This document shows positions 5,050-20,249 of a stretch of DNA of 20,249 nt, piece by piece. Under the pieces are notes generated by a model, which saw only the letters and a program-made list of their open reading frames with translations, searched no databases and had not been told where the DNA came from. This stretch comes from a virus: IMG/VR virus record IMGVR_UViG_3300025771_000262, positions 1 to 20,249 of that record; one strand, given 5' to 3'. Each line of letters starts with the position of its first letter. Within the stretch, counting starts at the first letter, position 1. A program made the translations under genes and the position numbers.

Positions 5050-5070
5050 TAACCTTGAAAGGGGCTATCA

Positions 5071-5397: not shown

Positions 5398-5448
5398 AAA
5401 ACGACCCTCGTGAATATATGCTATGGAAAGTAGCTATCCACGGGGGTC
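5388..5448 (+). promoter_or_regulatory. Programmed -1 frameshift signal (slippery site plus stem-loop)
   Basis: The heptamer GGGAAAC at 5388-5394 is correctly phased (G GGA AAC in the gpG frame) and directly precedes the gpG stop codon. After an 8-base spacer, 5403-5412 (GACCCTCGTG) pairs with 5439-5448 (CACGGGGGTC). This is a 10-bp stem with a single G-U pair. The 26-base loop itself can form GCTA/TAGC (5420-5423 with 5431-5434). Lambda uses the closely related GGGAAAG at the same place between G and T. Confidence 0.88.
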
Positions 5449-5711
5449 ATTTGCATCCCGACTTCATCAGAGGAAAACTCACTGACAAACAATTGCACGA
5501 GATAGCTTGGTACTACGAACTCCATCCGTTCGGGCATGAGATTAACCACACGATGATGGCCATGATGATTGCAAGTTTTGCTGGTGGTAAACCAGAGGAT
5601 TACATGCCAAAGATCAATACGCCACAAACCACTGATGAACTAATGGCTGGAATGGGTGGGCTGTCCAAGTTCTTGTTAGATCAGGACATTGACGCTAAGG
5701 AAAAAGAGTAA
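5394..5711 (+). CDS. Tail assembly chaperone, gpT-like part (-1 frame extension)
   Basis: This frame is open from 5379 and is -1 relative to gpG. After slippage at GGGAAAC it adds 105 residues beginning L-E-N-D-P-R-E-Y-M-L-W, giving a 213-residue gpGT-like fusion. An ATG at 5418 could start a 97-residue protein, but no Shine-Dalgarno sequence precedes it, and the residues before it (ENDPREY) already look coding. The C-terminal part (LTDKQLHEIAWYYELHPFGHEINHTMMAMMIASFAGGKPEDYMPK) resembles the gpT-type domain, which contacts the tape measure protein. It overlaps the tape measure start as TAATG at 5709-5713. Confidence 0.82.
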   Translation, partial: LENDPREYMLWKVAIHGGHLHPDFIRGKLTDKQLHEIAWYYELHPFGHEINHTMMAMMIASFAGGKPEDYMPKINTPQTTDELMAGMGGLSKFLLDQDIDAKEKE

Positions 5712-7147: not shown

Positions 7148-7164
7148 GTTAGGGAAACAGGAAA

Positions 7165-8523: not shown

Positions 8524-8538
8524 ACGGAGATATAAACA

Positions 8539-8952
8539 ATGGCAGATTTAACAATAACACCAACATCAGTCGCTGTTCAATCGGGCGGTGGTGGTCAGTT
8601 AGTACAGTTCGCAGAAACAACAACGCCGGGAGATGCCCTCTATAGATCAACCAGCGATGGGAAATACTACCTTGCCGATTGTGATGCCGAGGCCACAGCC
8701 AAGGTTGCTGGCATTGCGATCACTTACGGATCTGCTGATGATTATGGCTACATGTTCTCGGCATCCTCGCAGGATATCGACCTTGGTGCTACACTGACAT
8801 CAGGTGAGATTTATGTGGTTAGTGACACTTCTGGAAACATCATGCCATACTCCGATCTTACAACTGGACAATACCTTTCCATTATCGGATTCGCAAGATC
8901 TACATCACTACTGAAACTCGACATTAACGTGACAGGATTTACCAAGGCTTAG
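8539..8952 (+). CDS. Small beta-rich virion protein, DUF2190/decoration-like
   Basis: 137 residues, ribosome site ACGGAG at 8523-8529. The sequence TTPGDALYRSTSDGKYYLADCDAEATAKVAGIAI...YMFSASSQDIDLGATLTSGEIYVVSDTSGNIMP resembles small phage proteins of the DUF2190/capsid-decoration type, in which '..GD.VY......Y..A......AVAGIA' recurs with a short beta-barrel domain. Here it sits in the tail-tip region rather than beside the capsid gene. It could therefore be a tail or fibre-associated domain instead of a head decoration. No catalytic residues are evident. Family resemblance is moderate and based on pattern alone. Confidence 0.68.
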   Translation: MADLTITPTSVAVQSGGGGQLVQFAETTTPGDALYRSTSDGKYYLADCDAEATAKVAGIAITYGSADDYGYMFSASSQDIDLGATLTSGEIYVVSDTSGNIMPYSDLTTGQYLSIIGFARSTSLLKLDINVTGFTKA

Positions 8953-8954
8953 TA

Positions 8955-9551
8955 ATGGCTGATCTGCGGCGAGAGCTTGAGCAGATGCGTAACCGCATCA
9001 AGTCTCTTGAACAAAAGAATAAGCAATACGAAAGGACCGCAAGGTCGCTTCGAAACATAAGCCCATACCAATCATCCTTGGTGAAGGCAGACGAGGACAT
9101 ATTGCCTGACGAGGAAGGTAAGTGCATCTCCATGTACAGGATGGCCGAAGGTTCCTCGCCTTACCTGAAGTTAAAACAAAGGCCAGTAATAGAGTTCAAG
9201 GTCTACAACCACCGCAAGACTCCCATCTGGAAGGATGAAGAGTTTCATGTTGCTAGGGATGTCTGGGGGGACTACTATCGCATAAGTGGCTTTGTTGAGG
9301 CATCGTTCTTCCTGACAGGAGACGAAGGGATACCAGCAGCGTCAGGTCAGTTTAACCCACAGGGTGCAGACTGCCAAAGATATTACTTCAACAACCAACC
9401 CGGGGTTATCGACCCAGTTGAAGATCCGGAAACCGGCGGAACAGTCTTTGAGTTCGTATACAACCACACAACTAACGCCATTGCTGCCGACAAGGTGATT
9501 CAGGCCAAGAAGATCGACGGGCAGTGGTTCATTGATGTGGAGCCATGTTAG
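8955..9551 (+). CDS. Coiled-coil virion protein of unknown function (198 aa)
   Basis: Start ATG 8955, two bases after the previous stop (TAG 8950-8952). Residues 1-35 (DLRRELEQMRNRIKSLEQKNKQYERTARSLRN) form a clear heptad coiled coil, probably for oligomerisation. A globular, aromatic, beta-type domain follows (PVIEFKVYNHRKTPIWKDEEFHVARDVWGDYYRISGFVEASFF) and the protein ends KKIDGQWFIDVEPC. It lies between the decoration-like protein and the Cys-rich fibre-like protein, with nearly no spacing, so the three are probably translated as one unit. Suggested role: trimeric or hexameric connector or fibre at the tail tip. No enzyme motif; function unknown. Confidence 0.75.
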   Translation: MADLRRELEQMRNRIKSLEQKNKQYERTARSLRNISPYQSSLVKADEDILPDEEGKCISMYRMAEGSSPYLKLKQRPVIEFKVYNHRKTPIWKDEEFHVARDVWGDYYRISGFVEASFFLTGDEGIPAASGQFNPQGADCQRYYFNNQPGVIDPVEDPETGGTVFEFVYNHTTNAIAADKVIQAKKIDGQWFIDVEPC

Positions 9552-10985
9552 ATGAGTTTTAAGAATCATGGACCGGGTGGATGTTGCTGTGGGGGATGCC
9601 CACTCTGGCAAGACCAATTTGACTTGAATGGGTGGAATGTAGACGATGAGGGGCAGCTTGCTTGGGACTCTCACACTTACTCCCTGACAAACTTCTATGA
9701 ACAGAGCGGGGCATTGGTCGCAACCAGATCAGGGCAGACCAACCTAGCGGGGAACGTTAATTTTCAAGGCCCACGACTGCGTTATGGGTTTGCAGATCCC
9801 AACGCTCCGGTGATGTGGAATCTCGATCACGGGTATAAGGCACAATTTACCATAAACGTGGACTACGGGCATGTTCTTTTGGGTCACTGTGCCGAAGGAC
9901 TGCTTTTTGACTCACTCACAAACAAGGCGTATCCGGTAACTTCAAGCACTCTTTATCTGGGATTTGCACAGATTCATGGCGAAGGGTTCGACTTTGACCC
10001 AACCTATCCATTTGATGTAACATTAACAAGATGCGGAGATATTGTAGGCAACTATAGCAATTACCCGTCTTTTGGCACATGCCAGATTAATGCCGGGCCA
10101 GACAGGACCGGAAACACCATCGACTACAGGTTTCTTACCGAGCCAAACCAAGGGCAGTGGACGGGCTATAGGAGAACAATTAAGTTTGATATGTACAAGT
10201 ATGTTGATGGTGATCCACTTGTCCAACGCACTCCGGGTCAAAGTGGGACTCGAAAATACTACCCTGCTGTGGTTCCGTCAACACCTCAAATCACCCCGGA
10301 AAATAGGCCCAACGCCCAATTCCGGCTCCACGACATCACGATGGAGGCGATTGCGAACCTTTACAGATATACCGCATATCCTAACAACCCAAAATTTCCT
10401 CTCTCGGCACTGGACTTTACATCTACCCCAAGTGTCGAAGAGGTGGAGAACTGCGAACTTGTCCCAGAGTGGAATATTGATAATTGGATAAACCCGTACA
10501 AGGTCGGCAGCATTGAGGGTTATCCGATATTTGGAGGCGATGCAAAAAACGGCATCAAAGTAACGGCGTCAGGTACTCCGTCACGACCTATTGACGGCGA
10601 GGATGTTTTCTCACCGCTTGTTGATCAGACAAAATATTCGTTAAGTTCTGGGTACGGGGCAGATGTAAGCAAGGATACTTCAGTGCTAGTACCATCGAAC
10701 ATGGTGATACAGACTGGAAGGCATAAGCAGCGGTCGGTTTATTTCACGAAACCGAACACCGTATTCATCCAAGACTATTTTATCATGGACAGCGTGCAGG
10801 AGACGATAGTTATCAAATATTGGTTTGAAATTGGTGCGGCTGGAAACAGGGAATTCCCGTTCACTTTGACAACACCTTTCGCCGCTGATGCAACTGTGGT
10901 TGCCGCATCGGGAACACCGGCTATTGAAGCTGACGATGCTTGGACCGCAGTAGGTAACCGTGAATGGCTAATTGAGAAAATCTAA
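9552..10985 (+). CDS. Large Cys-rich, LamG-like tail protein (possible adhesin)
   Basis: 477 residues; the ATG at 9552 directly abuts the previous stop (TAG 9549-9551). The extreme N-terminus carries a cysteine cluster (GGCCCGGCPLW, Cys 11, 12, 13 and 16). A segment (QDQFDLNGWNVDDEGQLAWDSHTYSL) then resembles the start of concanavalin/LamG-like lectin domains ('F.D.F......NW......W......'). The remainder is beta-rich and aromatic with few charges and no membrane segment. Size, position after the tail-tip genes and the lectin-like start suggest a receptor-binding or glycan-binding tail protein. The Cys cluster may bind a metal or crosslink subunits. Assignment to an adhesin role is an inference. 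Confidence 0.65.
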   Translation: MSFKNHGPGGCCCGGCPLWQDQFDLNGWNVDDEGQLAWDSHTYSLTNFYEQSGALVATRSGQTNLAGNVNFQGPRLRYGFADPNAPVMWNLDHGYKAQFTINVDYGHVLLGHCAEGLLFDSLTNKAYPVTSSTLYLGFAQIHGEGFDFDPTYPFDVTLTRCGDIVGNYSNYPSFGTCQINAGPDRTGNTIDYRFLTEPNQGQWTGYRRTIKFDMYKYVDGDPLVQRTPGQSGTRKYYPAVVPSTPQITPENRPNAQFRLHDITMEAIANLYRYTAYPNNPKFPLSALDFTSTPSVEEVENCELVPEWNIDNWINPYKVGSIEGYPIFGGDAKNGIKVTASGTPSRPIDGEDVFSPLVDQTKYSLSSGYGADVSKDTSVLVPSNMVIQTGRHKQRSVYFTKPNTVFIQDYFIMDSVQETIVIKYWFEIGAAGNREFPFTLTTPFAADATVVAASGTPAIEADDAWTAVGNREWLIEKI

Positions 10986-10999
10986 CAGGAGCAAATAAA

Positions 11000-11458
11000 A
11001 TGGGACAAATCAACGCAGGAACAATTACCTCAGGCACAATTGTCAATACCGACATCGCTGCTGGAGCAGGACTAGCAGCCTCAAAACTACAGCATCAGCA
11101 TGTGCTGGTTGCTGACTGGGGATACGCTGACACTCAAGGCAGTATCGCCACCGAGGACGAGACGCTGTTTGTTGCAAGTAGTGCTGGTGAAATTCGTGAG
11201 GTCAAGGTATGGATGGTTAACACGGGTTCTGCCACCACAGATATTGATTTCGATTTAGAGGTCAATGGCTCGTCTGTCCTTACCGGCGACATTAACATCC
11301 TAAACACAACTGCAAACTTTACCGCAGTTTCAGGGACTATCTCAAGTGGAACCTTGGCTGCTGGCGACTATGTAACTGCCGTCATCAAGACTGTCACATC
11401 TGACAACGGCAGCACAGGTCCACGAATGCAAATCACACTAGACAGCACTTACGTCTAG
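11000..11458 (+). CDS. Small tail-fibre/virion protein (152 aa)
   Basis: ATG 11000 with an AACAGGAG ribosome site at 10984-10991. The N-terminal 35 residues (INAGTITSGTIVNTDIAAGAGLAASKLQHQH) match a motif common in phage tail and head fibre proteins, of the form 'I.sG.I.n.dI...A.I..sKL', thought to be a virion-attachment or trimerising segment. The C-terminal ~110 residues form a beta-type domain (EIREVKVWMVNTGSATTDIDFDLEVNGSSVLTG). It is the last gene of the late block and ends in a stop codon that overlaps the stop of the converging gene. Likely a minor fibre or decoration protein; the exact role is not visible. Confidence 0.68.
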   Translation: MGQINAGTITSGTIVNTDIAAGAGLAASKLQHQHVLVADWGYADTQGSIATEDETLFVASSAGEIREVKVWMVNTGSATTDIDFDLEVNGSSVLTGDINILNTTANFTAVSGTISSGTLAAGDYVTAVIKTVTSDNGSTGPRMQITLDSTYV

Positions 11459-11471
11459 TCAAGAAGTGGCT
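11444..11471. terminator. Weak hairpin at the convergent gene ends
   Basis: AGCACTT (11444-11450) pairs with AAGTGGCT (11464-11471) with one bulged G, enclosing both stop codons in the loop. There is no clean T run on either side, only TTGTCGTTCTTTCT on the plus strand. It is therefore at best a poor bidirectional terminator. No better candidate is seen at this junction. Confidence 0.25.
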
Positions 11472-11730
11472 TGTCGTTCTTTCTATTTGCCTGTTTGAGC
11501 GAGCGGATCTGGCCTTGGAGTTTCTTGACAGTCACTTCAAGGTCTTCCGTCTCACGCCTCAACGCATAGAACCTCTTCTCCAACGCCTCGATCTTGGTGT
11601 TGTTTTCCTTAACGTGATGGAAAACGAACCATATCCCCATCGTGCCAAACGAATCTAGGAACTTCTCTAGCTTGTCCGGAGCTACCATCAATTCGTCGAT
11701 GATTGCGTTATAAACTTCCTCTTTCTTCAT
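11455..11730 (-). CDS. Small coiled-coil protein (91 aa), last gene of early block
   Basis: Start ATG at 11730 with AAGGAG about 7 bases upstream. Residues ~38-85 (HHVKENNTKIEALEKRFYALRRETEDLEVTVKKLQGQIRSLKQ) form a heptad coiled coil. The N-terminal 35 residues are helical with a hydrophobic patch (GTMGIWFVFHHV). Soluble and charged, with no catalytic motif. Its start codon overlaps the stop of a 19-codon micro-ORF (ATGA, 11727-11730), so translation is probably coupled to the genes before it. Family not recognised. Confidence 0.75.
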   Translation of the reverse strand: MKKEEVYNAIIDELMVAPDKLEKFLDSFGTMGIWFVFHHVKENNTKIEALEKRFYALRRETEDLEVTVKKLQGQIRSLKQANRKNDKPLLD

Positions 11731-11786
11731 AGCTGGCTCCTTTCTTCGGCAGCCTTGAGTAGCTCTCTTAGCCTTTCCTTAATCAT
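11727..11786 (-). CDS. Micro-ORF of 19 codons overlapping both neighbours
   Basis: The peptide MIKERLRELLKAAEERSQL is strongly helical and amphipathic. Its ATG (11786-11784) overlaps the TGA of the upstream gene as ATGA. Its own TGA (11729-11727) overlaps the ATG of the downstream gene as ATGA. It fills exactly the only gap between these two genes and contains the downstream ribosome site. It may be a functional peptide, or simply a translational-coupling leader that carries ribosomes across the gap. Confidence 0.45.
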   Translation of the reverse strand: MIKERLRELLKAAEERSQL

Positions 11787-11989
11787 AATTGCTCTCCCAG
11801 CGTCGCCTTGTCTATTGCTCGCTGCAAAATTTTGACCGTCTCCCACCTATCCACCACGCCACACGCAGGGAATCCCAATAGCACCAGTTGAGCTTGCCTT
11901 GCCGCCCGTAACAATTCCGGTGCTGCCGCTATTGCCTGAGGTGTAAGATCAGGCTCGTCAGTGCTAACTTCGTACGTCTTAATGCTCAT
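11783..11989 (-). CDS. Small hypothetical protein (68 aa)
   Basis: Start chosen at ATG 11989, which overlaps the previous stop as ATGA and has GGAG 6 bases upstream. An in-frame ATG four codons earlier lacks both. The protein contains TPQAIAAAPELLRAARQAQLVLLG, very like the 'ANARLIAAAPELLEAL' helix of many small phage proteins of unknown function, followed by a second helix (RWETVKILQRAIDKATLG). Expected to be a small helical cytoplasmic protein. Function unknown. Confidence 0.72.
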   Translation of the reverse strand: MSIKTYEVSTDEPDLTPQAIAAAPELLRAARQAQLVLLGFPACGVVDRWETVKILQRAIDKATLGEQL

Positions 11990-12177
11990 TCGAATCTCCA
12001 ATCCTTTAGTTCAATTTGTGTCGCTTCGCTGAAGTTGCAAAGTATGATGTGTTGACACTGCTGCCAAGTATAAGCAGCAACCTCCACACGTTCAACCTTA
12101 CCCTTCCAAACGATATCGCACGTGTACAAACCCACTTTATCGTATCCTGCCAATAACTGTCTTGTGCAATAACTCAT
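11986..12177 (-). CDS. Small hypothetical protein (63 aa; start uncertain)
   Basis: The coding content is clear from SYCTRQLLAGYDKVGLYTCDIVWKGKVERVEVAAYTWQQCQHIILCNFSEATQIELKDWRFE, an alpha/beta pattern with a central helix. Two starts are possible. ATG 12177 leaves a 41-base overlap with the upstream gene but has no Shine-Dalgarno sequence. ATG 12237 has AAGGA 7 bases upstream but would overlap the upstream coding region by about 100 bases and add 20 residues. I chose the shorter form. No catalytic or metal motif is convincing. Function unknown. Confidence 0.6.
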   Translation of the reverse strand: MSYCTRQLLAGYDKVGLYTCDIVWKGKVERVEVAAYTWQQCQHIILCNFSEATQIELKDWRFE

Positions 12178-12577
12178 GGCCACACGGCATCTGGGTGCAG
12201 TCAACGGCATCCTGTGGGTGAAATGCTGCTTCGCCATTCTGAATCCTTTTTCTCATGACGTTTATTTTGCCTTGCGAACCCGGCGGCCATGACGTTGGCT
12301 CTTCTGGAATAACAGGCTCGAAGCACGCATCATTGTTAAACACGTCGAGCCACTTGTCAATTGTGTCGAGGGAGCCTTTAGGCATTCTTTTCTTGACAGC
12401 GGCAAAGTAAGCCGGGCATTCAGTGCTACATCTGTTCGAGTGATTATACTTCAGGTTGTAATGAAGCACGCTCCTCTCCTCGCCGCAGTCACATCGCACA
12501 GGCGTGTAGTATTTCCCTTGCTGAGTTTTGTAAGTCTCACCGATCACTGTCCACTGTCCGTATCTGGTCCCAATCAT
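12137..12577 (-). CDS. Zinc-knuckle DNA-binding-type phage protein (146 aa)
   Basis: Start at ATG 12577, with AGGAGAGAC upstream; an in-frame ATG at 12655 would run back through the 32-codon ORF before it. The N-terminal 50 residues (IGTRYGQWTVIGETYKTQQGKYYTPVRCDCGEERSVLHYNLKYNHSNRC) match the 'G..FG.WTVI......W.C.CDCG....V....L..G....C' module. That module occurs in many phage HNH-associated and DNA-binding proteins, usually with a zinc site (here Cys 29, 31 and further Cys residues). The C-terminal part (PGSQGKINVMRKRIQNGEAAFHPQDAVD) resembles a short motif (PG...K...M..R...G...FHP.DA) I recall from phage and planctomycete proteins. No nuclease residues are seen. Confidence 0.7.
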   Translation of the reverse strand: MIGTRYGQWTVIGETYKTQQGKYYTPVRCDCGEERSVLHYNLKYNHSNRCSTECPAYFAAVKKRMPKGSLDTIDKWLDVFNNDACFEPVIPEEPTSWPPGSQGKINVMRKRIQNGEAAFHPQDAVDCTQMPCGHELLHKTVIGRIR

Positions 12578-12578
12578 C

Positions 12579-12677
12579 TTAGTCTCTCCTGTTAGTTCTG
12601 TTTGATGGAATGAAAAGTATAACCGACTGCAACACTGTAAGCAACAGCCATCCACCCAATAAAATCAACAAATCCAT
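12579..12677 (-). CDS. Single-pass membrane micro-protein (32 aa)
   Basis: ATG 12677 lies one base after the helicase stop codon (TGA 12681-12679), with AAAGGAG in the helicase 3' end 6 bases before it. The ORF ends TAA at 12579, one base before the next gene's ATG (12577). The product has one uninterrupted hydrophobic segment (LLILLGGWLLLTVLQSVILFI, given as residues 3-23 in part) and a basic tail ending SNRTNRRD. Perfect fit and ribosome site make it likely to be a real gene. A holin-like, regulatory or superinfection role cannot be told apart. Confidence 0.68.
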   Translation of the reverse strand: MDLLILLGGWLLLTVLQSVILFIPSNRTNRRD

Positions 12678-12678
12678 A

Positions 12679-14226
12679 TCAGTCTCCTTTAGGGATTAAG
12701 TCCTTTGGTTTTAGCATGCCTAGAGGTAGGTAAAAATCGACTAGCCTCTTGCACATCATCGGCCACGAGCGATCAGGATAATGCCAGTCGTGGGTGCGTG
12801 CAAAGTCAGCGTATAGCTGTGCCATTGTTCGGTCGGGATTATGTTTGCGATTAGCAAAAACCTTCCCCGTCCACTCTTTAATAGCCTTTTCGGTTGGCTC
12901 TAGCTTCTTACGTTTACGCCACTGTGCAGGCTCCATCGAGATTAACTTGCCTGTTGTCATTCTAACGGGACGCCGGTGATCGGGGCGTTTGACCTCATGG
13001 CCGCACCAAGGACACACTAACTCACTGCCACGAATTCCACTGCACTGCGAACAGACCTGCTGCTTATCACGCTCACCTTCTTGAACCTCTTCGTTCCGTA
13101 GAGCAGCAATAGAAGCATTGCTCATGTCTAAGTGCCACTGGCGGTTCTCATTCAGGCTACCGAATCGCCACCATCCACCACCGTGATCCAAGACCTTCAC
13201 AACATCAACATCTGGATGCTTACGAATAACCCGACCACCGGCTTGGAGATAAGACGTGATAGAACCGAAACTAGTAGCGAACACACACGCCTTCAGGTAT
13301 GGCATGTCGATCCCTTCACGCATCACGAAACGATTGCACAGCACCTTGATCTCACCGGACTCGTGCCGGGAAACGATCTCGCTGCGAACCTCCTCGGACG
13401 TTGGGACCAACTCACCATCAAGCCAGCAATTCGCACCGTCAATATGAGCAGCACTGATACCGTTACTGTTCAACTGCTCACATATCCAGATCGAACCAGC
13501 AACGTCGGGGCCAAACAGAATTGTTTTTTCTAGTTCGGGGTGGATGCGTCGTAGGTTATCAACCACATCGCCAAAGATGCGGTGAACGAACTCCTTACGT
13601 TTGCTTTTACGGATACCACAACCGTCTCCGGACAGGTCGATTTTTCCGATGATCTTCTCGTCTAACTCAGGCATCGCAAAATGAACCGCTGGGACATGAG
13701 AGCCACAAGCACGAAGCTCGCTATTTGTACCAGCAATAACCAACTCATCGAACATGTGACCAACATTAACAGGAGTCGCAGTCCAGCCTATCAGAACGCC
13801 TGAGTGCATGTCTAACAACTCCTCGGTCTTGCCACGGCAGTTGTTATGGACTTCATCAACGTGGATGATACGGGCATCCACAACGTCTCTGGAGCCATGT
13901 TCAAGAATAGCGGCGATTTCCGTTTGCAACATACATATCTGCGTAGGCCAGATAGGGGCTTTATCGTGACCGGCTGCACGTTTACCGTAACTGATGCCAG
14001 CCTCATCCAAGCCACTGCACAATTGGCTGAACAACATGCGGCGGTTCGTGTATAGGACGGATGACTTTTCGGCTTCGATCAGAGTTCGCATCATACGAGA
14101 CTTGCCGCCACCAGTCGGGCTAACAACACAGATACGTTTCGCACCGCTCTTAATAAGCTCGACAACCTCACGTAGCCCACGTTCTTGGTGAGGCCACAGA
14201 CCGTCGTAGTTTAGTTCAAGATTCAT
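12679..14226 (-). CDS. SF2 DEAD/DEAH-box helicase (DEVH) with zinc ribbon
   Basis: 515 residues; ATG 14226 with AAAGGGAA upstream. Motifs in order: a Q-like LWPHQERGLREVV at 10-22; Walker A SPTGGGKS at 36-43; Walker B VDEVH at 123-127; motif III GWTATP at 147-152; and motif VI (QAGGRVIR) near 340. A zinc ribbon follows (CSQC...CPWC at ~392-408), then a basic C-terminal domain (DHRRPVRMTTGKLI, RKRKKLE). This is the phage SF2 helicase family related to UvsW/RecG-like remodelling enzymes. It is an ATP-dependent DNA or RNA translocase that may act in replication or recombination. It is the only replication-type enzyme in the window. Confidence 0.9.
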   Translation of the reverse strand: MNLELNYDGLWPHQERGLREVVELIKSGAKRICVVSPTGGGKSRMMRTLIEAEKSSVLYTNRRMLFSQLCSGLDEAGISYGKRAAGHDKAPIWPTQICMLQTEIAAILEHGSRDVVDARIIHVDEVHNNCRGKTEELLDMHSGVLIGWTATPVNVGHMFDELVIAGTNSELRACGSHVPAVHFAMPELDEKIIGKIDLSGDGCGIRKSKRKEFVHRIFGDVVDNLRRIHPELEKTILFGPDVAGSIWICEQLNSNGISAAHIDGANCWLDGELVPTSEEVRSEIVSRHESGEIKVLCNRFVMREGIDMPYLKACVFATSFGSITSYLQAGGRVIRKHPDVDVVKVLDHGGGWWRFGSLNENRQWHLDMSNASIAALRNEEVQEGERDKQQVCSQCSGIRGSELVCPWCGHEVKRPDHRRPVRMTTGKLISMEPAQWRKRKKLEPTEKAIKEWTGKVFANRKHNPDRTMAQLYADFARTHDWHYPDRSWPMMCKRLVDFYLPLGMLKPKDLIPKGD

Positions 14227-14419
14227 CTGTATTCCCTTTTAATATCTCAGCTTGCCGCTCCACCGATTGCATTACCTCTTCTAACAGATCCCTACACCGA
14301 TCAAAATCGTTCCAGCTTGTTTGATGCGAGAACTTGGCTAGTGTTTTCACCAGCTTGGACATATCACGATGTATGCTGTGGACTGCTAGGTGCTTTGGCT
14401 TTGGTTGTCTGTCCCCCAT
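14216..14419 (-). CDS. Small helical hypothetical protein (67 aa)
   Basis: ATG 14419 has a strong GAGGAA ribosome site about 7 bases upstream but overlaps the DUF3310 gene by 56 bases. An alternative ATG at 14362 lies just after the DUF3310 stop (TGA-T-ATG) but has no Shine-Dalgarno sequence. The conserved-looking part is MSKLVKTLAKFSHQTSWNDFDRCRDLLEEVMQSVERQAEILKG, two amphipathic helices. It overlaps the helicase start by 11 bases, so the two may be translationally coupled. Function unknown. Confidence 0.62.
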   Translation of the reverse strand: MGDRQPKPKHLAVHSIHRDMSKLVKTLAKFSHQTSWNDFDRCRDLLEEVMQSVERQAEILKGNTDES

Positions 14420-14621
14420 TTAATTCTTCCTCTATTTCGATTTGTCTCTCTAGATACCAGCGTGCTTTGTAAAGATCGTCGAGAATGTCCTCGCCATCCT
14501 TTCTGCCTGCTCTGGCACAGTATTTCACACAGTTGCCAAGCAAGAAGTTCAAGTGTTGGGTTATCTGGATCACCTCCACGCCACCGAATTTGTAATGTGA
14601 TGGGCTAGTCTTCTCGTTCAT
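14364..14621 (-). CDS. DUF3310 family protein
   Basis: 85 residues from ATG 14621, which overlaps the previous stop as ATGA and has GAGG 8 bases upstream. The longer upstream extension is a reading-frame artefact. The sequence SPSHYKFGGVEVIQITQHLNFLLGNCVKYCARAGRKDGEDILDDLYKARWYLERQIE is the core of the DUF3310 family, found in many phages: 'HY...G.E.I......L....GN..KY..R.G.K......DL.KA.WYL...'. The family's function is not established; it is often placed in nucleotide metabolism neighbourhoods. The C-terminal 20 residues are a polar tail. Confidence 0.85.
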   Translation of the reverse strand: MNEKTSPSHYKFGGVEVIQITQHLNFLLGNCVKYCARAGRKDGEDILDDLYKARWYLERQIEIEEELNGGQTTKAKAPSSPQHTS

Positions 14622-14893
14622 ATGTCGTTCCTCACCAGCTTGCTCATGGCGATCCAGTGGACAGGTTCGCCAACAAATAGCGGGTCCATGCGGCGGACAT
14701 ACCCACACGATTCCCAAGCTTCCAAGGCACGGTAGATGGTGCGGTGGCACGCTTCGTCGCCGTAACTGTTACGCATCTCGTTCATAACGTCAGTCGTGTT
14801 TACGCCACGGCGTGATGTTGAGACGATTGTTAGCACGTTTACCAACCTCTCAGCTAAACCGTTTCTCCTCCAGCCATTATCAACTTCACTCAT
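14618..14893 (-). CDS. Winged helix-turn-helix DNA-binding protein (91 aa)
   Basis: The protein reads as one small winged-helix domain. There is an N-terminal helix (AERLVNVLTIVSTSRRG), then a second helix (VNTTDVMNEMRN), the recognition helix (DEACHRTIYRALEAWESCGYVRRM) and a short wing (EPVHWIAM). The 'RTIYRALEAWESCGYV' segment is typical of this fold. It may regulate the early operon or assist replication. The start overlaps the preceding gene by 8 bases and its end overlaps DUF3310 as ATGA. No effector domain is present. Confidence 0.7.
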   Translation of the reverse strand: MSEVDNGWRRNGLAERLVNVLTIVSTSRRGVNTTDVMNEMRNSYGDEACHRTIYRALEAWESCGYVRRMDPLFVGEPVHWIAMSKLVRNDI

Positions 14894-15098
14894 CGTCTTC
14901 CTCCTCGTACATCTTATCGAAACACTCGCCGCAAATCTTACTCATCAATAACTCACGCTCGTTAACACTCAACTGAGGCATAGCGTTCTGGATATACTCG
15001 CCAGACTGCCAGCGATCGTACTGGTCAAGCGTGCAGCTAACTGATTTGTAGCAATCACATACCTGACACCGCACAACAAAATCAATCTTCTCACTCAT
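14886..15098 (-). CDS. Small zinc-binding-type phage protein (70 aa)
   Basis: Two cysteine pairs (RCQVC at ~10-14 and ICGEC near residue 57) flank SVSCTLDQYDRWQSGEYIQNAMPQLSVNERELLMSKICGECFDKMY. The pattern 'C..C.......YDRW..GE.IQ..MP.L...ERELL.S..CG.CFD..F' recurs in small proteins of many phages, notably actinophages, where the function is unknown. The four cysteines suggest a zinc ribbon. It has a strongly acidic C-terminus (EEEDDE). It overlaps both neighbours by 8 bases. Possibly a DNA- or protein-binding accessory factor. Confidence 0.72.
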   Translation of the reverse strand: MSEKIDFVVRCQVCDCYKSVSCTLDQYDRWQSGEYIQNAMPQLSVNERELLMSKICGECFDKMYEEEDDE

Positions 15099-15303
15099 CG
15101 TCTTCTCCCTTCCAAGAAACCTGAACGATCACACGTTCGTTATCGGACTGAAATTGTTTTACAATAACCTCGTTAACAAACTCGGGACTGTCATCGACCA
15201 GAACCCCAGCATGAACTAGACCGTCAATCAATGCCTTGGTAGATAGGTTGTCAACGTCGATCTGTCGTTTACGCATGTTAATAACTGTGATCTTAGCTGC
15301 CAT
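15091..15303 (-). CDS. RusA-like Holliday-junction resolvase, C-terminal core only
   Basis: Seventy residues with RKRQIDVDNLSTKALIDGLVHAGVLVDDSPEFVNEVIVKQ, a clear match to the catalytic core of RusA ('DPDN..K...DAL......DD...V'). The acidic residues correspond to the RusA active site: D16 and D18 (DxD), K23, and D37 of the DD pair. The D16-to-D37 spacing (21) equals that of E. coli RusA D70-D91. The usual N-terminal ~55 residues (strand plus PPSxN loop) are absent. That region appears instead as a separate gene at 16278-16547, with HNH and PD-(D/E)XK-like genes in between. It starts at ATG 15303, sharing one base with the previous stop. Confidence 0.75.
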   Translation of the reverse strand: MAAKITVINMRKRQIDVDNLSTKALIDGLVHAGVLVDDSPEFVNEVIVKQFQSDNERVIVQVSWKGEDDE

Positions 15304-15770
15304 TAGAATTCCTCGTTACGACCAATTCTTAAACCTTTAGTATTAGTACATACATCACGGCACAGGTCAACATCAATCTCAAGTATTTTTTCCTTTTTAG
15401 CGTGTCGGCTATCTTTTTCAACGAAACGGTTATATTTCAGTGCATCTGACAGTGAACTAGGATACACAATTAAACATCTATCCATGTCGTGTGGCAGGAC
15501 AAACAGCGGCCCCTTGCGTAGTTTCTTGTAACGTCGCTCAGGAAGGTTGTACGTGTCAAACGGAAACATGCCCTTGTGCCAGCATACAGCACGACGCCGC
15601 TCAACCTCACACGGGTACATCTTCCCTCGCACCTCCAGCATGAGATCAGGGCCATACTTATCAACGGGCTTATGGCATGTATATCCGAGCTTGGACAACC
15701 ATGACTGCACAAACCATTCACCCTGAATGCCGTACTGGTGATGATTCTTGTTGAATTGTTTATTTGCCAT
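15303..15770 (-). CDS. PD-(D/E)XK-like nuclease fold protein (155 aa)
   Basis: The N-terminal 60 residues have the Holliday-resolvase/VRR-type restriction fold pattern: GIQGEWFVQSWLSKLGYTCHKP (GE at 17-18, then a hydrophobic helix), GPDLMLEVRGKMYPCEVERRR (D42, and the catalytic-type E55-V-E57). The usual motif II 'D...(D/E)xK' shows Glu rather than Lys at the third position, as in several relatives. The later part (KGPLFVLPHDMDRCLIVYPSSLSDALKYNRFVEKD) is a further alpha/beta segment. Likely a DNA endonuclease or an inactive DNA-binding relative. Located between the RusA halves, within the recombination module. Confidence 0.65.
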   Translation of the reverse strand: MANKQFNKNHHQYGIQGEWFVQSWLSKLGYTCHKPVDKYGPDLMLEVRGKMYPCEVERRRAVCWHKGMFPFDTYNLPERRYKKLRKGPLFVLPHDMDRCLIVYPSSLSDALKYNRFVEKDSRHAKKEKILEIDVDLCRDVCTNTKGLRIGRNEEF

Positions 15771-16374
15771 TTAGAAAATCCGTGAATGTCTTAGCACCCT
15801 TAGAGCAGTTGCAGGACTTGCAGGCGGGTACAATGTTTGAGATCCAGTTAGTTCCACCCTGACTCAGTGGAATAGCGTGGTCGGCTTCTAGCCATCCTTC
15901 ATTGGTCTCGCTCTTGTGGATGCCACAGTAACGACAGCGGTAACCGTAGTATTCGAGTTTGGCTTTCCAATCGGCGGCGGTGTGTGTGCCATCGGCATTG
16001 CGTTTCTTGGCACGACGGCGGTGGTTCTTGGCTCGAAACTTCTCAGGGTTGGTTTTGGCGTACTTGGATTGGGCAGCCAAAACCTTGTCACGGTTCTCGG
16101 CGTAATACTTGGCATGGTATTCATTGAGCTTCTCACGGTTCTCTGCACGGTACTTGGCTCTGGCCGCCTTGACCTTCTCATGGTTCTCTTCTTGATATTT
16201 AACTTGCTGGGCCTTATAGCAAACCTTGCACGAAAACTTGAGACCGTCCTTGTTCTGCCCATCCTTGTAATACTCCGTTAACGGCTTCGTTTCGCCGCAC
16301 TTCGAGCATGCTTTAGTTTCTCCTTGTTCCTCTGGCTGGGCCTTATCGTCGCCATGTACTCCATTATCAGGCAT
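15760..16374 (-). CDS. HNH endonuclease with zinc module and 15-residue repeats
   Basis: 204 residues. An N-terminal zinc module has CSKC at 23-26 and CKVC at 49-52. Residues 60-119 are four near-identical 15-residue helical repeats beginning at Y60, Y75, Y90 and Y105 (pattern YxxENxEKxxxxxxK). The C-terminal HNH domain has RCRYC (C147, C150), the catalytic DH at 165-166, N180, and C185/C188 in PACKSCNCSKGAK. This resembles free-standing homing or packaging-type HNH endonucleases of phages that nick DNA. It overlaps the upstream gene by 97 bases, so it may have been inserted into the operon. Confidence 0.85.
   Translation of the reverse strand: MPDNGVHGDDKAQPEEQGETKACSKCGETKPLTEYYKDGQNKDGLKFSCKVCYKAQQVKYQEENHEKVKAARAKYRAENREKLNEYHAKYYAENRDKVLAAQSKYAKTNPEKFRAKNHRRRAKKRNADGTHTAADWKAKLEYYGYRCRYCGIHKSETNEGWLEADHAIPLSQGGTNWISNIVPACKSCNCSKGAKTFTDFLNGK
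16018..16197 (-). repeat. Four 45-bp coding tandem repeats in the HNH gene
   Basis: The 15-residue repeats of the HNH protein correspond to four tandem 45-base units (16197 down to 16018). The DNA is clearly similar, with recurring segments such as GAGAACCGTGAGAAG-type codons in the first three. They presumably arose by slippage and encode an extended, charged helix that links the zinc module to the HNH domain. Confidence 0.8.
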
Positions 16375-16547
16375 TCGTCAAATTCTCCATCATTGACTGC
16401 GGTTAGAACGATCTCGTGCATTAGGTCACGTATCTTCTTGCGTTTCCAAGGATTCGCAGAAAGCAAAAAGTTCCAGCTTGGTAAGGGGATCGGTAGTTCC
16501 AACTCGATCCCTATAGGCTTTCCTGTTTTAATTTCCAATATTCCCAT
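16278..16547 (-). CDS. RusA N-terminal-like protein (89 aa)
   Basis: Core sequence IGIELELPIPLPSWNFLLSANPWKRKKIRDLMHEIVLTAVN. The 'LPIPLPSWN....NPWKRKKIRD..H' pattern resembles the N-terminal strand, PPSxN loop and first helix of RusA-type resolvases. The basic C-terminus (TIRPSQRNKEKLKHARSAAKRSR) replaces the catalytic part. ATG 16547 overlaps the preceding membrane ORF by 37 bases; a TTG at 16502 with AGGG just before it would give a 74-residue product starting right after that ORF's stop. It could also be an independent phage family that only resembles RusA. See the C-terminal half at 15091-15303. Confidence 0.6.
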   Translation of the reverse strand: MGILEIKTGKPIGIELELPIPLPSWNFLLSANPWKRKKIRDLMHEIVLTAVNDGEFDECLIMEYMATIRPSQRNKEKLKHARSAAKRSR

Positions 16548-16666
16548 ATTACTGATAGCACAAACCAAATCGCCAAAGGCGAAACAGCCCACGGAGCAAA
16601 CACTCCGCAGGCTATAACGCACAATAGCAGTGACAGTGAACCTAATGATTGTAGGAAACTGTCCAT
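16511..16666 (-). CDS. Two-helix membrane micro-protein (51 aa)
   Basis: ATG 16666 overlaps the SSB stop codon (TAATG, 16668-16664) and the ORF ends TAG at 16511. The product starts MDSFLQSLGSLSLLLCVIACG and continues VFAPWAVSPLAIWFVLSVIWEY before a short charged tail (WKLKQESL), giving two hydrophobic segments joined by a Pro-containing turn. It fills the 118-base gap between SSB and the next gene. The sequence looks selected rather than random. A role as a holin-like or membrane-tethering protein is possible but unproven. Confidence 0.6.
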   Translation of the reverse strand: MDSFLQSLGSLSLLLCVIACGVFAPWAVSPLAIWFVLSVIWEYWKLKQESL

Positions 16667-17055
16667 TAGAACGGCACGCTTTCCATAGCTGGAGCGGTGG
16701 TGGCACTAGAGGAGGATGAGCCATCACCATTAGAGCGACCGAGCAATGTAAGTTTATTACAAACAACCTTCAACTTCTGCCGCTGATTGCCTTCTTGGTC
16801 CTCCCACTGGTCGAGTTTCAAGCGACCCTCGATGTGGCAGGCACTACCTTTCTCTAAGTATTGCTCTGCGATCTCTGCAGTGCGACCCCAGCAGGTAACG
16901 TCAACGTAGACGGGTTCTTCGACCCATTCATCGCCACGTTTTACACGCTCGTTGACAGCCATGCGAAGGTCACAAACACTTGTGCCACCCGCATCCCGCA
17001 ACTCAATATCAAAACATACGTTCCCAAGCAAATTTACTTGATTAACACTAGCCAT
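16666..17055 (-). CDS. ssb: Single-stranded DNA-binding protein
   Basis: 129 residues with the full bacterial SSB OB-fold pattern: NQVNLLGNVCFDIELRDAGG at the N-terminus, VCDLRMAVNERVKRGDEWVEEPVYVDVTCWGRTAEIAEQYLEKGSACHIEGRLKLDQWEDQEGNQRQKLKVVCNKLTLLG. It binds ssDNA during phage replication and recombination. The linker is short (Ser/Ala/Thr-rich, ~residues 108-120) and the C-terminal tip reads AMESVPF. It keeps the terminal 'PF' but lacks the usual acidic DDDIPF that recruits host partners. Its start overlaps the upstream gene's stop as TAATG. Confidence 0.92.
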   Translation of the reverse strand: MASVNQVNLLGNVCFDIELRDAGGTSVCDLRMAVNERVKRGDEWVEEPVYVDVTCWGRTAEIAEQYLEKGSACHIEGRLKLDQWEDQEGNQRQKLKVVCNKLTLLGRSNGDGSSSSSATTAPAMESVPF

Positions 17056-17408
17056 TATTTGCTACTCCTAGACCTAATACGAATACCATTAACATTCTTT
17101 CCTTGAAGTCGAACTTTATCGTCCGTGTAAAGAACAACTTCCTTACCAATCCACTTGCTAGCATCTCTACCATGAATCGCAGCGATCAACCTTGCGTTAG
17201 TTGGGTTTAACACAAGCGGTCTTACCTTGTCGAGTTCACCTCCAATAACTTTGTAGTGTAGTACGGGTTTATATTCTTTGTTTCGCTGGTTCGGGAGTTG
17301 CATCTCGACCTTCTCCTCGATCTTGGCGATCTCTATGAGTAGGCCGTTTTCTGGCAAATGAAACCAACGCAAGTACTTCTTATCGAACAAACTCTCAAAA
17401 TCAAGCAT
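17055..17408 (-). CDS. Conserved recombination-module protein of unknown function (117 aa)
   Basis: The central and C-terminal part (YKPVLHYKVIGGELDKVRPLVLNPTNARLIAAIHGRDASKWIGKEVVLYTDDKVRLQGKNVNGIRIR) matches a phage pattern of unknown function ('KPLVLN.TNA..IA...G.D...WIGK.I.L......G....GIRV') that typically lies beside exonuclease, annealase and SSB genes. It is encoded exactly between a RecE-like exonuclease and SSB, where an annealing protein would usually be. It is too short to be RecT or Red-beta. The start overlaps the exonuclease stop by 8 bases. Possibly an ssDNA-binding or exonuclease-partner protein. Confidence 0.78.
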   Translation of the reverse strand: MLDFESLFDKKYLRWFHLPENGLLIEIAKIEEKVEMQLPNQRNKEYKPVLHYKVIGGELDKVRPLVLNPTNARLIAAIHGRDASKWIGKEVVLYTDDKVRLQGKNVNGIRIRSRSSK

Positions 17409-18246
17409 TAAACTGCACCTCCAGCTGGTCGTTATTTAACCACATCCAGTCCGCACCCTCGTCCTGACCTACGTTGAATGCGTGTTCACGATAGCGTTTG
17501 TAGCGTTCCAACGCCACGTCAATATCATCCTTTGCTTTCTCCATCCACTCCACAGGGATGCGATACACCGTAACATCGACCGGCTCCACGCCTTTTGGTG
17601 CGGCGATGATATAGCATTGGTCGAGTGGGATATCCATGCCGTTTTGGTTAAGAAGATCCAAGTAATATCTCAACTGGAATCCATAACCGAATTTCCAAAA
17701 CGATGACCGAAACGCTTTGATTGTAGCATCACGGGTCGTTTTCAAATCAAAAAGCAAAGAGCTGGTCATTCCGTCGCACAGCCCTTTGCATCGCACTCCG
17801 TTAAGCAGTCCATCGACTGCCACTTGCGTCCTGCCTGTGTTGTCGTCCATGAACTTCCTGTAGAAACCCTTAGCTTTGACTGACTCCGCAATCGCAGCAC
17901 AGGTACTCCATTCTTCCTTGCTAATAAATTGCTTGCCCGCATGTTCACGAGCAAACTCAGACAGCTTCTCCTTCACATACGCTGTATTCTTTGAGGTTGA
18001 TCTTGCACCGGTTGCAGTGACATTGCCGGTACAGTTGGCGTAGTCAGGTGGGATAACGAAATTATCTCCAACCGTCTCAGGCGTTAACACCATCTGGTCA
18101 ACTAGCGAACCGATCTTGAACGCCTCTGATGCTTGTGGTCGTGGTGCTAGGAATGCCTTGCCACTCACTAACAACCGCTTCGCCATGCTCTGTGACAAGC
18201 CGCTCATGTCACGGTATTCTTGGTCGGGGATATTATAGATTCCCAT
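17401..18246 (-). CDS. RecE/exonuclease VIII-like 5'-3' exonuclease
   Basis: 281 residues; ATG 18246 has AGGAGAC upstream. The RecE-type PD-(D/E)XK signature is complete. It comprises an N-terminal GLSQSMAKRLLVSGKAF (~16-32), GSLVDQMVLTPE (46-57), D158 in GLCDG, catalytic DLKT with D167 and K169, and QLRYY (Q191 to Y195), the QxxxY motif of this family. The enzyme digests the 5' strand of double-stranded DNA ends to make ssDNA for annealing during replication or recombination. It opens the recombination module (with SSB, RusA halves and nucleases) and overlaps the preceding gene by 14 bases. Confidence 0.9.
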   Translation of the reverse strand: MGIYNIPDQEYRDMSGLSQSMAKRLLVSGKAFLAPRPQASEAFKIGSLVDQMVLTPETVGDNFVIPPDYANCTGNVTATGARSTSKNTAYVKEKLSEFAREHAGKQFISKEEWSTCAAIAESVKAKGFYRKFMDDNTGRTQVAVDGLLNGVRCKGLCDGMTSSLLFDLKTTRDATIKAFRSSFWKFGYGFQLRYYLDLLNQNGMDIPLDQCYIIAAPKGVEPVDVTVYRIPVEWMEKAKDDIDVALERYKRYREHAFNVGQDEGADWMWLNNDQLEVQFNA

Positions 18247-18538
18247 CGTCGTCTCCTCTAATCTCTAAATCGCCATCTTCGTTAAAAAAACAGTGCTCCT
18301 CCATGAGATTAAACAGGCGTTCTCGAACCTTGATTACGCCGTACCAATGGACCGCAGCATCAACGACACCGCTAAATCCTTCAGGTGATTTATCACTAAA
18401 TGCAGCTTGCCATTGTTCCACAACGCCCTCGGGGTCGGATAGGAAGTGCTGCTTTAGATGCGAGTAGATGATTGCCTCGGACTGATCTGCGTCAGCAATC
18501 TTTTTCATTTTAGCTCGTAGAAATTCTTTGTCCATCAT
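18233..18538 (-). CDS. Small acidic hypothetical protein (101 aa)
   Basis: Starts MMDKEFLRAKMKKIADADQSEAIIYSHLKQHF from ATG 18538; the adjacent ATG 18535 has better spacing (6) from GGAGACA. The C-terminus is acidic (NEDGDLEIRGDDDGNL). The middle (VVEQWQAAFSDKSPEGFSGVVDAAVHWYGVIKVRERLFNLMEEH) is helical, with no catalytic motif. It is the first gene after the 62-nt terminated leader and overlaps the exonuclease start by 14 bases, so its translation is probably coupled. Function unknown. Confidence 0.72.
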   Translation of the reverse strand: MMDKEFLRAKMKKIADADQSEAIIYSHLKQHFLSDPEGVVEQWQAAFSDKSPEGFSGVVDAAVHWYGVIKVRERLFNLMEEHCFFNEDGDLEIRGDDDGNL

Positions 18539-18559
18539 TGTCTCCTAGTCTCCATAAAC

Positions 18560-18607
18560 AAAAAACCGGGGGCAGGCGTAAAAGGGAGGAAACGCCACGT
18601 CCCCCGG
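18560..18607 (-). terminator. Strong intrinsic terminator in the leader
   Basis: Read on the minus strand: CCGGGGG (18607-18601) pairs with CCCCCGG (18572-18566), and an inner stem GGCGT (18596-18592) pairs with ACGCC (18579-18575). Six T residues follow (18565-18560). It is 21 bases from the next start codon. The loop is 12 pyrimidines. Confidence 0.88.
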
Positions 18608-18621
18608 CTTCAGGGGAGACT
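18560..18621 (-). ncRNA. Putative ~62-nt regulatory RNA or attenuated leader
   Basis: A promoter predicts a start at ~18621 and the terminator ends at 18560, giving a 62-nt RNA. Its 5' end reads AGUCUCCCC (18621-18613). The hairpin loop (18591-18580) reads UUCCUCCCUUUU, pyrimidines only, with an anti-Shine-Dalgarno-like CCUCC. The 5' end is complementary to GGAGACU, present just downstream (18553-18547) and upstream of several other early genes. It may be a trans-acting sRNA, a cis-attenuator of the recombination genes, or both. The RNA itself is inferred from sequence only. Confidence 0.6.
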
Positions 18622-18627
18622 ACAGAT

Positions 18628-18655
18628 AGTATAGCCGGTCAATTACTTTCGTCAA
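18628..18655 (-). promoter_or_regulatory. Sigma70-type promoter inside the end of the sulfotransferase gene
   Basis: Minus strand: -35 TTGACG (18655-18650), spacer 16 bases (18649-18634), -10 TATACT (18633-18628). Predicted start near 18621. It lies within and just after the 3' end of the gene at 18639-19115 and reads straight into the terminated RNA at 18560-18621. Confidence 0.72.
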
Positions 18656-19115
18656 GTGGTAAAAGATATTTTTTATTCCCGTCATCATAATTAGGCTTGT
18701 AGGCCCAAGACGGAAACACGACGCCAGTGAAATCTGCGATCCAAGGGATGACATAACCATCCTTCAGGTACATGGCGGACTCGTAGCTAAACACCTTACA
18801 GTCAAAACGAGGGTCTGCAAGGTACGCCTGAAGCACATCAGACACCTCGTGGGCGTTATCCAGAGCTTCCTGCATACTGCCGTTGTACTTGACGTTGCTT
18901 CGTACAGCACAGCCAACATCACGCACGCAGATAGCAATCTTGGCACGCTCACGCAACCCGAACTTATCCGGATCGTGGATGTAGCGACCGTCGCCAGCCT
19001 CAAACCGGGGCAGAGAGATGTGGTGGACGTTACTGCTGCCAATGGTCATCTGCAACAACTGGCCCAGCCACCTCGTACCGCTACTCTCCAGCCCCATCAC
19101 GTAAACACTACACAT
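18639..19115 (-). CDS. Sulfotransferase-like P-loop protein (158 aa)
   Basis: The N-terminus VYVMGLESSGTRWLGQLL (res 4-21) carries the 5'-phosphosulfate-binding loop of PAPS-dependent sulfotransferases (GxxxSGTxx). AICVRDVGCAVRSNVKYNG matches the 3'-phosphate-binding motif. Arg65 and Ser73 have the 8-residue spacing typical of the family (R and S, as in cytosolic SULTs). It is short (158 aa versus 250+), so acceptor-binding elements may be reduced. Unlike most phage accessory genes it sits at the promoter-proximal end of the early operon. Possible targets: host or phage glycans. Generic P-loop kinase/NTPase function is the alternative. Confidence 0.68.
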   Translation of the reverse strand: MCSVYVMGLESSGTRWLGQLLQMTIGSSNVHHISLPRFEAGDGRYIHDPDKFGLRERAKIAICVRDVGCAVRSNVKYNGSMQEALDNAHEVSDVLQAYLADPRFDCKVFSYESAMYLKDGYVIPWIADFTGVVFPSWAYKPNYDDGNKKYLLPLDESN

Positions 19116-19329
19116 TCCAATACCATTCCTCTCTACTATCTTCGCTCATAGTCTCGTCGATAACCTCGTTCCATATCTCAGCAGCAACCTCGTGGCCAAG
19201 CTCGTTAGCTGCCTCGACAATGGCCTGATAGCTCTTGAAGCCCTTCTGCCAATAACGAAAGTCATCACTGTGACTGTAAGTTAGGTCGTGCTTGCGGCAC
19301 ATCTCCTTGAATTCCTTTTGAGTTATCAT
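19108..19329 (-). CDS. Small acidic hypothetical protein (73 aa)
   Basis: Starts at ATG 19329 with AAGGA about 10 bases upstream; an extension to 19422 would lie wholly over the preceding gene. The sequence MITQKEFKEMCRKHDLTYSHSDDFRYWQKGFKSYQAIVEAANELGHEVAAEIWNEVIDETM has a helical layout. The C-terminus is acidic (MSEDSREEWYW). It overlaps the upstream gene by 65 bases and the sulfotransferase start by 8. Family and function unknown. Confidence 0.65.
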   Translation of the reverse strand: MITQKEFKEMCRKHDLTYSHSDDFRYWQKGFKSYQAIVEAANELGHEVAAEIWNEVIDETMSEDSREEWYWNV

Positions 19330-19555
19330 TGACTCTAATCCTTCTAGTATTCCTTGTGATTGCAATGCCCATCTCCTCTGCGACGATGTTAATAACGTGG
19401 TGGTTAAACTCGCTCTTGTCAAGCCCGCTGTCTGCGATCAACGCTTCGGTAAAGGGCTTCGGCTTCCATGATCTGCTGTAGTATTTCTGTGCGTTCAGGA
19501 TAATCGTCTTGCACAGGATCATGCCCTTTTTGATGCTGCCTACGCTACTATTCAT
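19265..19555 (-). CDS. Small basic hypothetical protein (96 aa)
   Basis: ATG 19555 has AGGAGAC 7 bases upstream. It is alpha/beta-like with a basic core (KTIILNAQKYYSRSWKPKPFTEALIADSGLDKSEFNHHVINIVAEEMGIAITRNTRRIRVND), a layout that could be a small winged-helix DNA-binding domain, followed by a disordered Gln/Asn/Pro-rich tail. It overlaps the gene before by 8 bases and the one after by 65. Role unknown; possibly a regulator of the early operon. Confidence 0.65.
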   Translation of the reverse strand: MNSSVGSIKKGMILCKTIILNAQKYYSRSWKPKPFTEALIADSGLDKSEFNHHVINIVAEEMGIAITRNTRRIRVNDNSKGIQGDVPQARPNLQSQ

Positions 19556-19820
19556 TTCCGGTCTCCTCTAAAAAGCTGTCGTTAACAAACTCATCTAAAT
19601 ACTCTTGCTCGGTCTCGAACCAATCGAGGTAGCCGATGTTCCACTCCCAGCCGTAGTTAACTGCGACGTAGGAATCAACCATCCTGTAGTGAGCGTCTGC
19701 CCACTTGGGTCCATGCTTCTCGATCCACTCGTCTGTGTTGTTAAACTCGTCAGGCAACCGAACAATCGCATTGCTATCGGTCTCGTCACGCACAACGTGA
19801 ACAACTAAAACTCCACTCAT
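19548..19820 (-). CDS. Highly acidic early protein (90 aa)
   Basis: ATG 19820 follows a perfect AGGAGG ribosome site 7 bases upstream. The protein has about 21 Asp/Glu against 5 Lys/Arg. It has a beta-type N-terminus (GVLVVHVVRDETDSNAIVRLP) and an aromatic, acidic C-terminal half (NYGWEWNIGYLDWFETEQEYLDEFVNDSFLEETGNE). Strong net negative charge, small size and very early position are typical of phage proteins that mimic DNA or bind host enzymes, but no known family is recognised. Confidence 0.72.
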   Translation of the reverse strand: MSGVLVVHVVRDETDSNAIVRLPDEFNNTDEWIEKHGPKWADAHYRMVDSYVAVNYGWEWNIGYLDWFETEQEYLDEFVNDSFLEETGNE

Positions 19821-19823
19821 AAC

Positions 19824-20036
19824 CTAGCCTCCTATTAACCAAACAAAGATACCAACAACCATCACTACTGGCACACAAAGCACCAAACAAATTAGCACAA
19901 CATTCTCAACCAACTCAACCCGTGTCATGCTTCGAACCCTAACTGCAATGCTGGGTCCAGCTATGAACAGCATGGTGAACACGATGCAAAACGTAAACCA
20001 CGCACACAAGATCCAATACAACTCACTGATAAACAT
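19824..20036 (-). CDS. Two-helix membrane protein, first early gene (70 aa)
   Basis: Start ATG 20036 is preceded by AAAGGAG with a 7-base gap; the upstream in-frame extension crosses the promoter and is rejected. Two hydrophobic segments: residues ~5-26 (LYWILCAWFTFCIVFTMLFIA) and ~46-66 (VVLICLVLCVPVVMVVGIFVWL), linked by a polar, basic loop (GPSIAVRVRSMTRVELVEN). It is promoter-proximal in the early operon, a position often used for membrane proteins affecting the host or superinfection. Specific role unknown. Confidence 0.75.
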   Translation of the reverse strand: MFISELYWILCAWFTFCIVFTMLFIAGPSIAVRVRSMTRVELVENVVLICLVLCVPVVMVVGIFVWLIGG

Positions 20037-20075: not shown

Positions 20076-20104
20076 ATAATATCGACCGACACGGGGTGGG
20101 TCAA
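20076..20104 (-). promoter_or_regulatory. Early sigma70-type promoter
   Basis: Minus strand: -35 TTGACC (20104-20099), 17-base spacer, -10 TATTAT (20081-20076). Predicted start near 20069 gives a ~33-base leader to the first gene (ATG 20036). A GGGGTGG box (plus strand 20093-20099) lies in the spacer and next to the -35 box. Confidence 0.82.
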
Positions 20105-20138
20105 TAACAAAATTAAAATAAATGTGAAATAAATTTAG

Positions 20139-20249
20139 GGGGTGGTGAAACGACGCCACACTTTTTCATATTCGTATTTTTTTAGGGGGTGTCTCCCGAC
20201 GCCACACTTTTTCATATTCAGATTTTTTCAGGGGGTGGGGGTCGTAAAA
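20139..20249. repeat. 46-bp tandem repeat array upstream of the early promoter
   Basis: A 23-bp sequence starting CGACGCCACAC is repeated exactly at 20151-20173 and 20197-20219 (period 46). Each unit is followed by a T-rich stretch and an AGGGGGTG box; these G boxes lie at 20139, 20186 and 20232. The last unit runs into the window edge (GTCGTAAAA) and is degenerate. Probable protein-binding array (repressor, replication initiator) or iterons. Apart from the early promoter, I see no gene in 20037-20249. Confidence 0.82.

Follow-up and report, generated by a model that had tools for sequence, protein, structure and literature searches.

What does a set of regularly spaced G-rich boxes do at the right end of a phage record, where the first of them meets the −35 hexamer of an early promoter? 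The window, by which we mean the whole stretch of DNA that was analysed, is a complete IMG/VR virus record of 20249 bases. It represents a tailed phage: its left end carries, on the plus strand, the gene for a major head protein (phrog_10), and plus-strand genes extend to 11458. A leftward early block (11455–20036, minus strand) is read from the promoter and encodes exonuclease VIII, SSB, RusA-like, endonuclease VII/HNH-like and helicase proteins. The first gene of this operon (19824–20036, minus strand) is preceded by AAGGAG and encodes a 70 aa product with hydrophobic stretches. Another early product (18639–19115) weakly matches a P-loop sulfotransferase at its start (Pfam, E 0.061); it was not found in G001, the relative described below. 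The nearest capsid relative in the genome collection belongs to a Pirellula bin (47% identity), and this similarity offers a planctomycete host as a lead.

The leftward early promoter is of the sigma70 type and matches the hexamers at 10 of 12 positions. Its −35 hexamer TTGACC (20099–20104, minus strand) and its −10 hexamer TATTAT (20076–20081, minus strand) are separated by a 17-bp spacer. The first-pass annotation had placed a G-box in this spacer next to the −35 hexamer, and that is where box 1 lies (20093–20098, minus strand; CACCCC, then G): directly 3' of the hexamer, as the first six bases of the spacer. The coordinates, the spacing and the 23-bp copies that it had listed were likewise all correct on recheck. 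On the plus strand GGGGT starts at 20093, 20139, 20186 and 20232, in steps of 46, 47 and 46 bp. The minus strand gives them as CACCCC(C/G), their 5' ends falling at 20098, 20144, 20191 and 20237; their shared core is CCCACCCCC, which is not palindromic. Box 2 (20138–20144, minus strand) is CACCCCC followed by TAAA and lies 46 bp upstream of box 1; box 3 (20185–20191, minus strand) has the same sequence and the same TAAA and lies 47 bp further upstream; box 4 (20231–20237, minus strand), after another 46 bp, is CACCCCC followed by TGAA. The minus-strand contexts are thus ttgacc-CACCCCG, tttcac-CACCCCC-taaa, gggaga-CACCCCC-taaa and gacccc-CACCCCC-tgaa.

The boxes are joined by two kinds of DNA. 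Between boxes 2 and 3, and again between boxes 3 and 4, lies a perfect copy of the 23-bp segment CGACGCCACACTTTTTCATATTC (20151–20173 and 20197–20219, both plus strand). This segment is absent between boxes 1 and 2, where AT-rich DNA is found instead: a 33-bp, UP-element-like stretch (20105–20137, minus strand) runs from box 2 to the −35 hexamer. No inverted repeats were found in the array, which is therefore unlike the usual dimer operator, and the number of terminator-like hairpins on its plus strand is that expected by chance.

The array is far beyond chance. The best tandem identity is 39/46 at a shift of 47; when these 209 bp are shuffled, no shift gives more than 26. All three occurrences of CACCCCC in the 20 kb fall within the array, and in 400 shuffled windows CACCCC pairs at 45–47 bp appeared in about 0.5% and triples in none (0/400). 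Within the two copies of the repeat unit, the G-box and the 23-mer are identical while the 6-bp linker between them differs at six positions of six. As judged from this pattern, selection on both elements is easier to invoke than recent duplication.

Only one IMG/VR contig carries a close homologue of the window exonuclease. This relative, G001 (IMGVR_UViG_3300006916_000414, 23094 bases), is syntenic with the window over nearly its full length, the leftward early block included. The MCP is about 91% identical and some late proteins reach 91–93%; early proteins show 30–66% identity, and the exonuclease is 66% identical in amino acids. In this 23 kb, TTGACCCACCCC occurs exactly twice (L003:29 and 1932), each time as the −35 element of a leftward-type early promoter with an identical TTGACC. 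These two promoters are 1.9 kb apart, share the 15-bp sequence ATTGACCCACCCCCC, and both keep the ATTGACCCACCCC of box 1; a hairpin terminator (L003:1118–1147) lies between the two early units. Across the window and G001 the early promoters have near-consensus hexamers spaced by 17–18 bp.

The window promoter has its orthologue in the second G001 promoter, whose operon leads to homologues of 19548–19820, 19265–19555 and the exonuclease. There the upstream box is CACCTCCTAAA at L003:1892, the counterpart of box 2, and its distance from CACCCCC at 1938 is again exactly 46 bp. The AT-rich segment between them has the same length and can be aligned, and over the 54 bases from box 2 through box 1 the window and G001 agree at 41/54 positions, the next-best place in the locus giving 27/54. 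The 46-bp step is thus kept in G001 without the 23-mer. Neither the 23-bp segment nor boxes 3–4 were detected at this orthologous promoter, and G001 as a whole shows no significant match to the 23-mer; a recurrence at L003:1581 was rejected, since 3/60 shuffles reach an equal score. Conservation of the spacing in relatives, on which the first-pass annotation had made its reading depend, accordingly holds for the first pair of boxes (46 bp) and was not seen for the outer part of the array. Two genomes, the window and G001, cover the site, and since only 28 bases of the G001 contig precede its first promoter, any array there is out of view. A further direct repeat with a 29-bp step (L003:1492–1549), in which GTCACTGACAA occurs twice, lies in the long non-coding DNA that precedes the second G001 early promoter.

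Beyond these two genomes our searches did not meet the arrangement again. We scanned with a matrix built from the seven boxes (four from the window, three from G001), for which only absence elsewhere is informative. At or above the score of the weakest box it returned the four window sites and the three G001 sites, all at early promoters, and no further site in the window, G001, L131, L133, L295, L372, L129, L130, L134 or L297. The 23-mer was absent from other IMG/VR contigs. An IMG/VR search for the box 32–34 bases before TTGACCCACC gave ten matches, of which only G001 was promoter-like, the rest looking protein-coding; a three-box pattern scan across IMG/VR found no relevant phage. Among 397 genomes from the class to which the Pirellula bin belongs, the promoter-plus-box pattern matched four times, a chance level similar to that for the reversed pattern, and alignment of the exonuclease against genome contigs gave no relative. 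An Rfam search returned nothing, and comparison of the array with phage records gave very short chance matches only. In the collections searched, the promoter-plus-box combination, as recognized by sequence, is confined to this small group.

Other matches to TTGACCCACCCC were mostly coding or unrelated. One recurrent subgroup (L019, L060 and others) was not used as support: a terS-like gene and a GACGCCGG motif adjoin TTGACCCACCCC, but without the 46-bp register. The contigs L019, L023, L028, L053, L060, L072, L085, L092, L100, L107 and L115 form a separate phage group that uses TTGACCCACCCC as a −35 element. Their promoter points away from the terS-like gene (judged by eye), and a GAAAAAGACGACTGGGGACGCCGG-like motif, conserved some 30 bp upstream, may be a packaging (cos) site.

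We propose, at roughly even chances and from the sequence evidence above, that the boxes are asymmetric, same-oriented putative protein-binding sites that control the leftward early promoter, probably by repression. Because box 1 lies in the spacer of a near-consensus promoter, a protein bound there would most simply repress. The phage itself most likely encodes such a protein and produces it early; bound to the spacer box it would block RNA polymerase, while the upstream boxes would act as auxiliary sites that raise its local concentration or affinity. In G001, where one box type is present on two early promoters, the same protein could bring about a coordinated shut-off. The operators suggested by the first-pass annotation gain from this comparison: the box and its 46-bp step recur at the orthologous promoter, and the box is present at the other G001 early promoter and nowhere else in the relative contigs scanned. 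The cooperativity suggested along with them fares worse if it is taken as binding on the same face of the helix. A step of 46–47 bp corresponds to 4.4–4.5 helical turns, which is not integral, and puts neighbouring boxes on nearly opposite faces. Looping, or pairing of alternate boxes 93 bp apart (8.9 turns), is possible.

No repressor family was recognized among the window's early proteins, in G001's upstream operon or in the first genes of G409, the contig that probably lies to the right. The window does encode a protein (14618–14893) with a weak HTH/winged-helix-like match (Pfam E 0.03–0.06, below the cut-off), for which no homologue was detected in G001. At present the array, though well formed, is an ordinary control region of an early promoter. 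Its interest is that it offers an uncultured phage group, of which one conserved relative is known, a control region compact enough to be tested.

The explanation that competes best with operator control dispenses with a dedicated regulator. On this account CCCACCCC after TTGAC is a feature of promoter strength or of RNA polymerase, and the upstream copies are remnants of tandem duplication. The box is fused to the −35 hexamer in 3/3 promoters, TTGACCCACCCC near a −10-like hexamer is also found upstream of genes in unrelated phage contigs, and the outer array was not found in G001, all of which fit this account. Against it, the G-boxes and the 23-mer have stayed identical across a linker that has changed completely, and G001 keeps the 46-bp step without the 23-mer. 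We regard this explanation as unlikely.

For some of the remaining alternatives, what probably adjoins the window is relevant. Through the terminase of L131 we found a contig, G409 (IMGVR_UViG_3300034375_006390, also L372; 17036 bases), that probably represents the adjoining portion of this phage or of a near one, although no read or contig joins it to position 20249. The assignment rests on a chain of similarities: G409 is 99.6% identical to L296, which comes from a sample that also gave L129, and L129 is 99.5% identical to the window; L130 is about 93% identical to the window and overlaps G409 at about 91%. The left end of G409 carries a perfect TTGACA-16-TATAAT sigma70 promoter (L372:105–132) pointing right, and the array is not present in G409. 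If G409 is adjacent, the array sits between two diverging transcription units.

G409 has further features of its own. Its rightward promoter, together with a non-coding stretch of about 730 nt that follows it before the first genes, occupies L372:105–870. The stretch has a strong predicted fold (MFE −280 kcal/mol, with z −5.3 from 20 shuffles) and terminates in a hairpin with a T-run. It matched no Rfam family at the gathering score and no similar phage record; from the predicted folding of this single known sequence, it is a candidate large structured phage RNA. Two adjoining genes for papain-like and trypsin-like proteases (L372:3991–4758 and 4790–5464) are found among the rightward genes. 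In L296, the large terminase gene (7041–9734) is interrupted in frame by about 340 extra residues, which are intein-like with a homing-endonuclease part and are absent from the terL of L131 (553 aa).

A replication origin, which the first-pass annotation had offered as its other reading, would make the 46-bp units iterons bound by an initiator beside an AT-rich unwinding stretch, at the place where leftward and rightward transcription diverge. The suggestion is possible, and location is its one positive argument: direct repeats do lie beside an AT-rich stretch, and plus-strand GC skew stays below zero throughout the leftward block but is mostly positive in G409, with the cumulative minimum near the array. 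The skew, however, simply follows gene direction. TTWTNCACA DnaA boxes number 0 in the whole window against 1.95 expected, and no initiator gene was recognized among the window proteins. What G001 keeps is the promoter-proximal pair, and its other early promoter 1.9 kb away also carries the box. We consider an origin rather improbable.

Still less probable is that the boxes are activator or host-factor sites, DNA-bending sites included, that raise early transcription on entry. The position of boxes 2–4, upstream of the promoter and beyond the AT-rich UP-like stretch, would suit this role. However, an activator bound at box 1, between the −35 and −10 hexamers, would normally clash with polymerase, and the hexamers, spaced by 17–18 bp, are near consensus already; the activator allowed for in the first-pass annotation is thus the weaker half of its repressor-or-activator proposal. 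A packaging site, with cosB-like terminase-binding repeats at a genome end where assembly breaks at the physical end, is very improbable: the window and G001 both end less than 150 bp upstream of an early promoter, but assembly would break at a repeat array in any case, and terS lies several kb from the left end of G409, the probable right-hand contig (its join to the window not proven), behind HNH and structural genes.

How does the proposed operator control of the early promoter compare with known systems? Lambda OL/OR consist of several dyad-symmetric operators on an early promoter, about 20–24 bp apart, with binding that overlaps promoter elements. The window boxes are likewise clustered on an early promoter; unlike lambda sites they have no inverted repeat and follow a 46-bp step. 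This lack of inverted repeats excludes dyad operators of the lambda type. The iterons of plasmids and phages are typically direct repeats of about 20 bp beside AT-rich DNA; an initiator gene adjoins them and DnaA boxes are often present, although DnaA boxes are not strictly required in phage iteron origins. The window units resemble them in being directly repeated beside AT-rich DNA, and differ from them in that the window has neither DnaA boxes nor a recognized initiator gene.

The L5 operator of the cluster A mycobacteriophages is, by analogy, the nearest functional parallel. The operator/stoperator site of gp71 is GGTGGMTGTCAAG (PMC3029335); the operator overlaps Pleft near the right genome end (PMC5712189) and is bound by monomeric repressor (PMC9283540), and about 24 sites are spread through the L5 genome, mostly in intergenic positions (PMC3029335, PMC5712189, PMC9283540). 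As in L5, an asymmetric site overlaps a leftward early promoter and the sites share one orientation. Written in promoter direction, the L5 site is CTTGACAKCCACC (reverse complement), which is close to ATTGACCCACCCC, a likeness that in part follows necessarily from the TTGAC that both have in the −35 hexamer. Unlike L5, the window and G001 have sites only at early promoters, with the extra ones placed upstream in a regular 46-bp array. Because the genome-wide stoperator distribution is absent, we do not file the window array as a member of the L5 type. No L5-type repressor family was seen among the early proteins scanned, and the stretch to the right of 20249 is missing from the record. It is doubtful that a novel regulator reading an asymmetric C-rich site fused to the −35 hexamer, independent of the mycobacteriophage system, silences all early promoters of this group. 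If the regulator is found, the boxes would provide a further example of one-directional operators overlapping the −35 hexamer, outside the mycobacteriophages.
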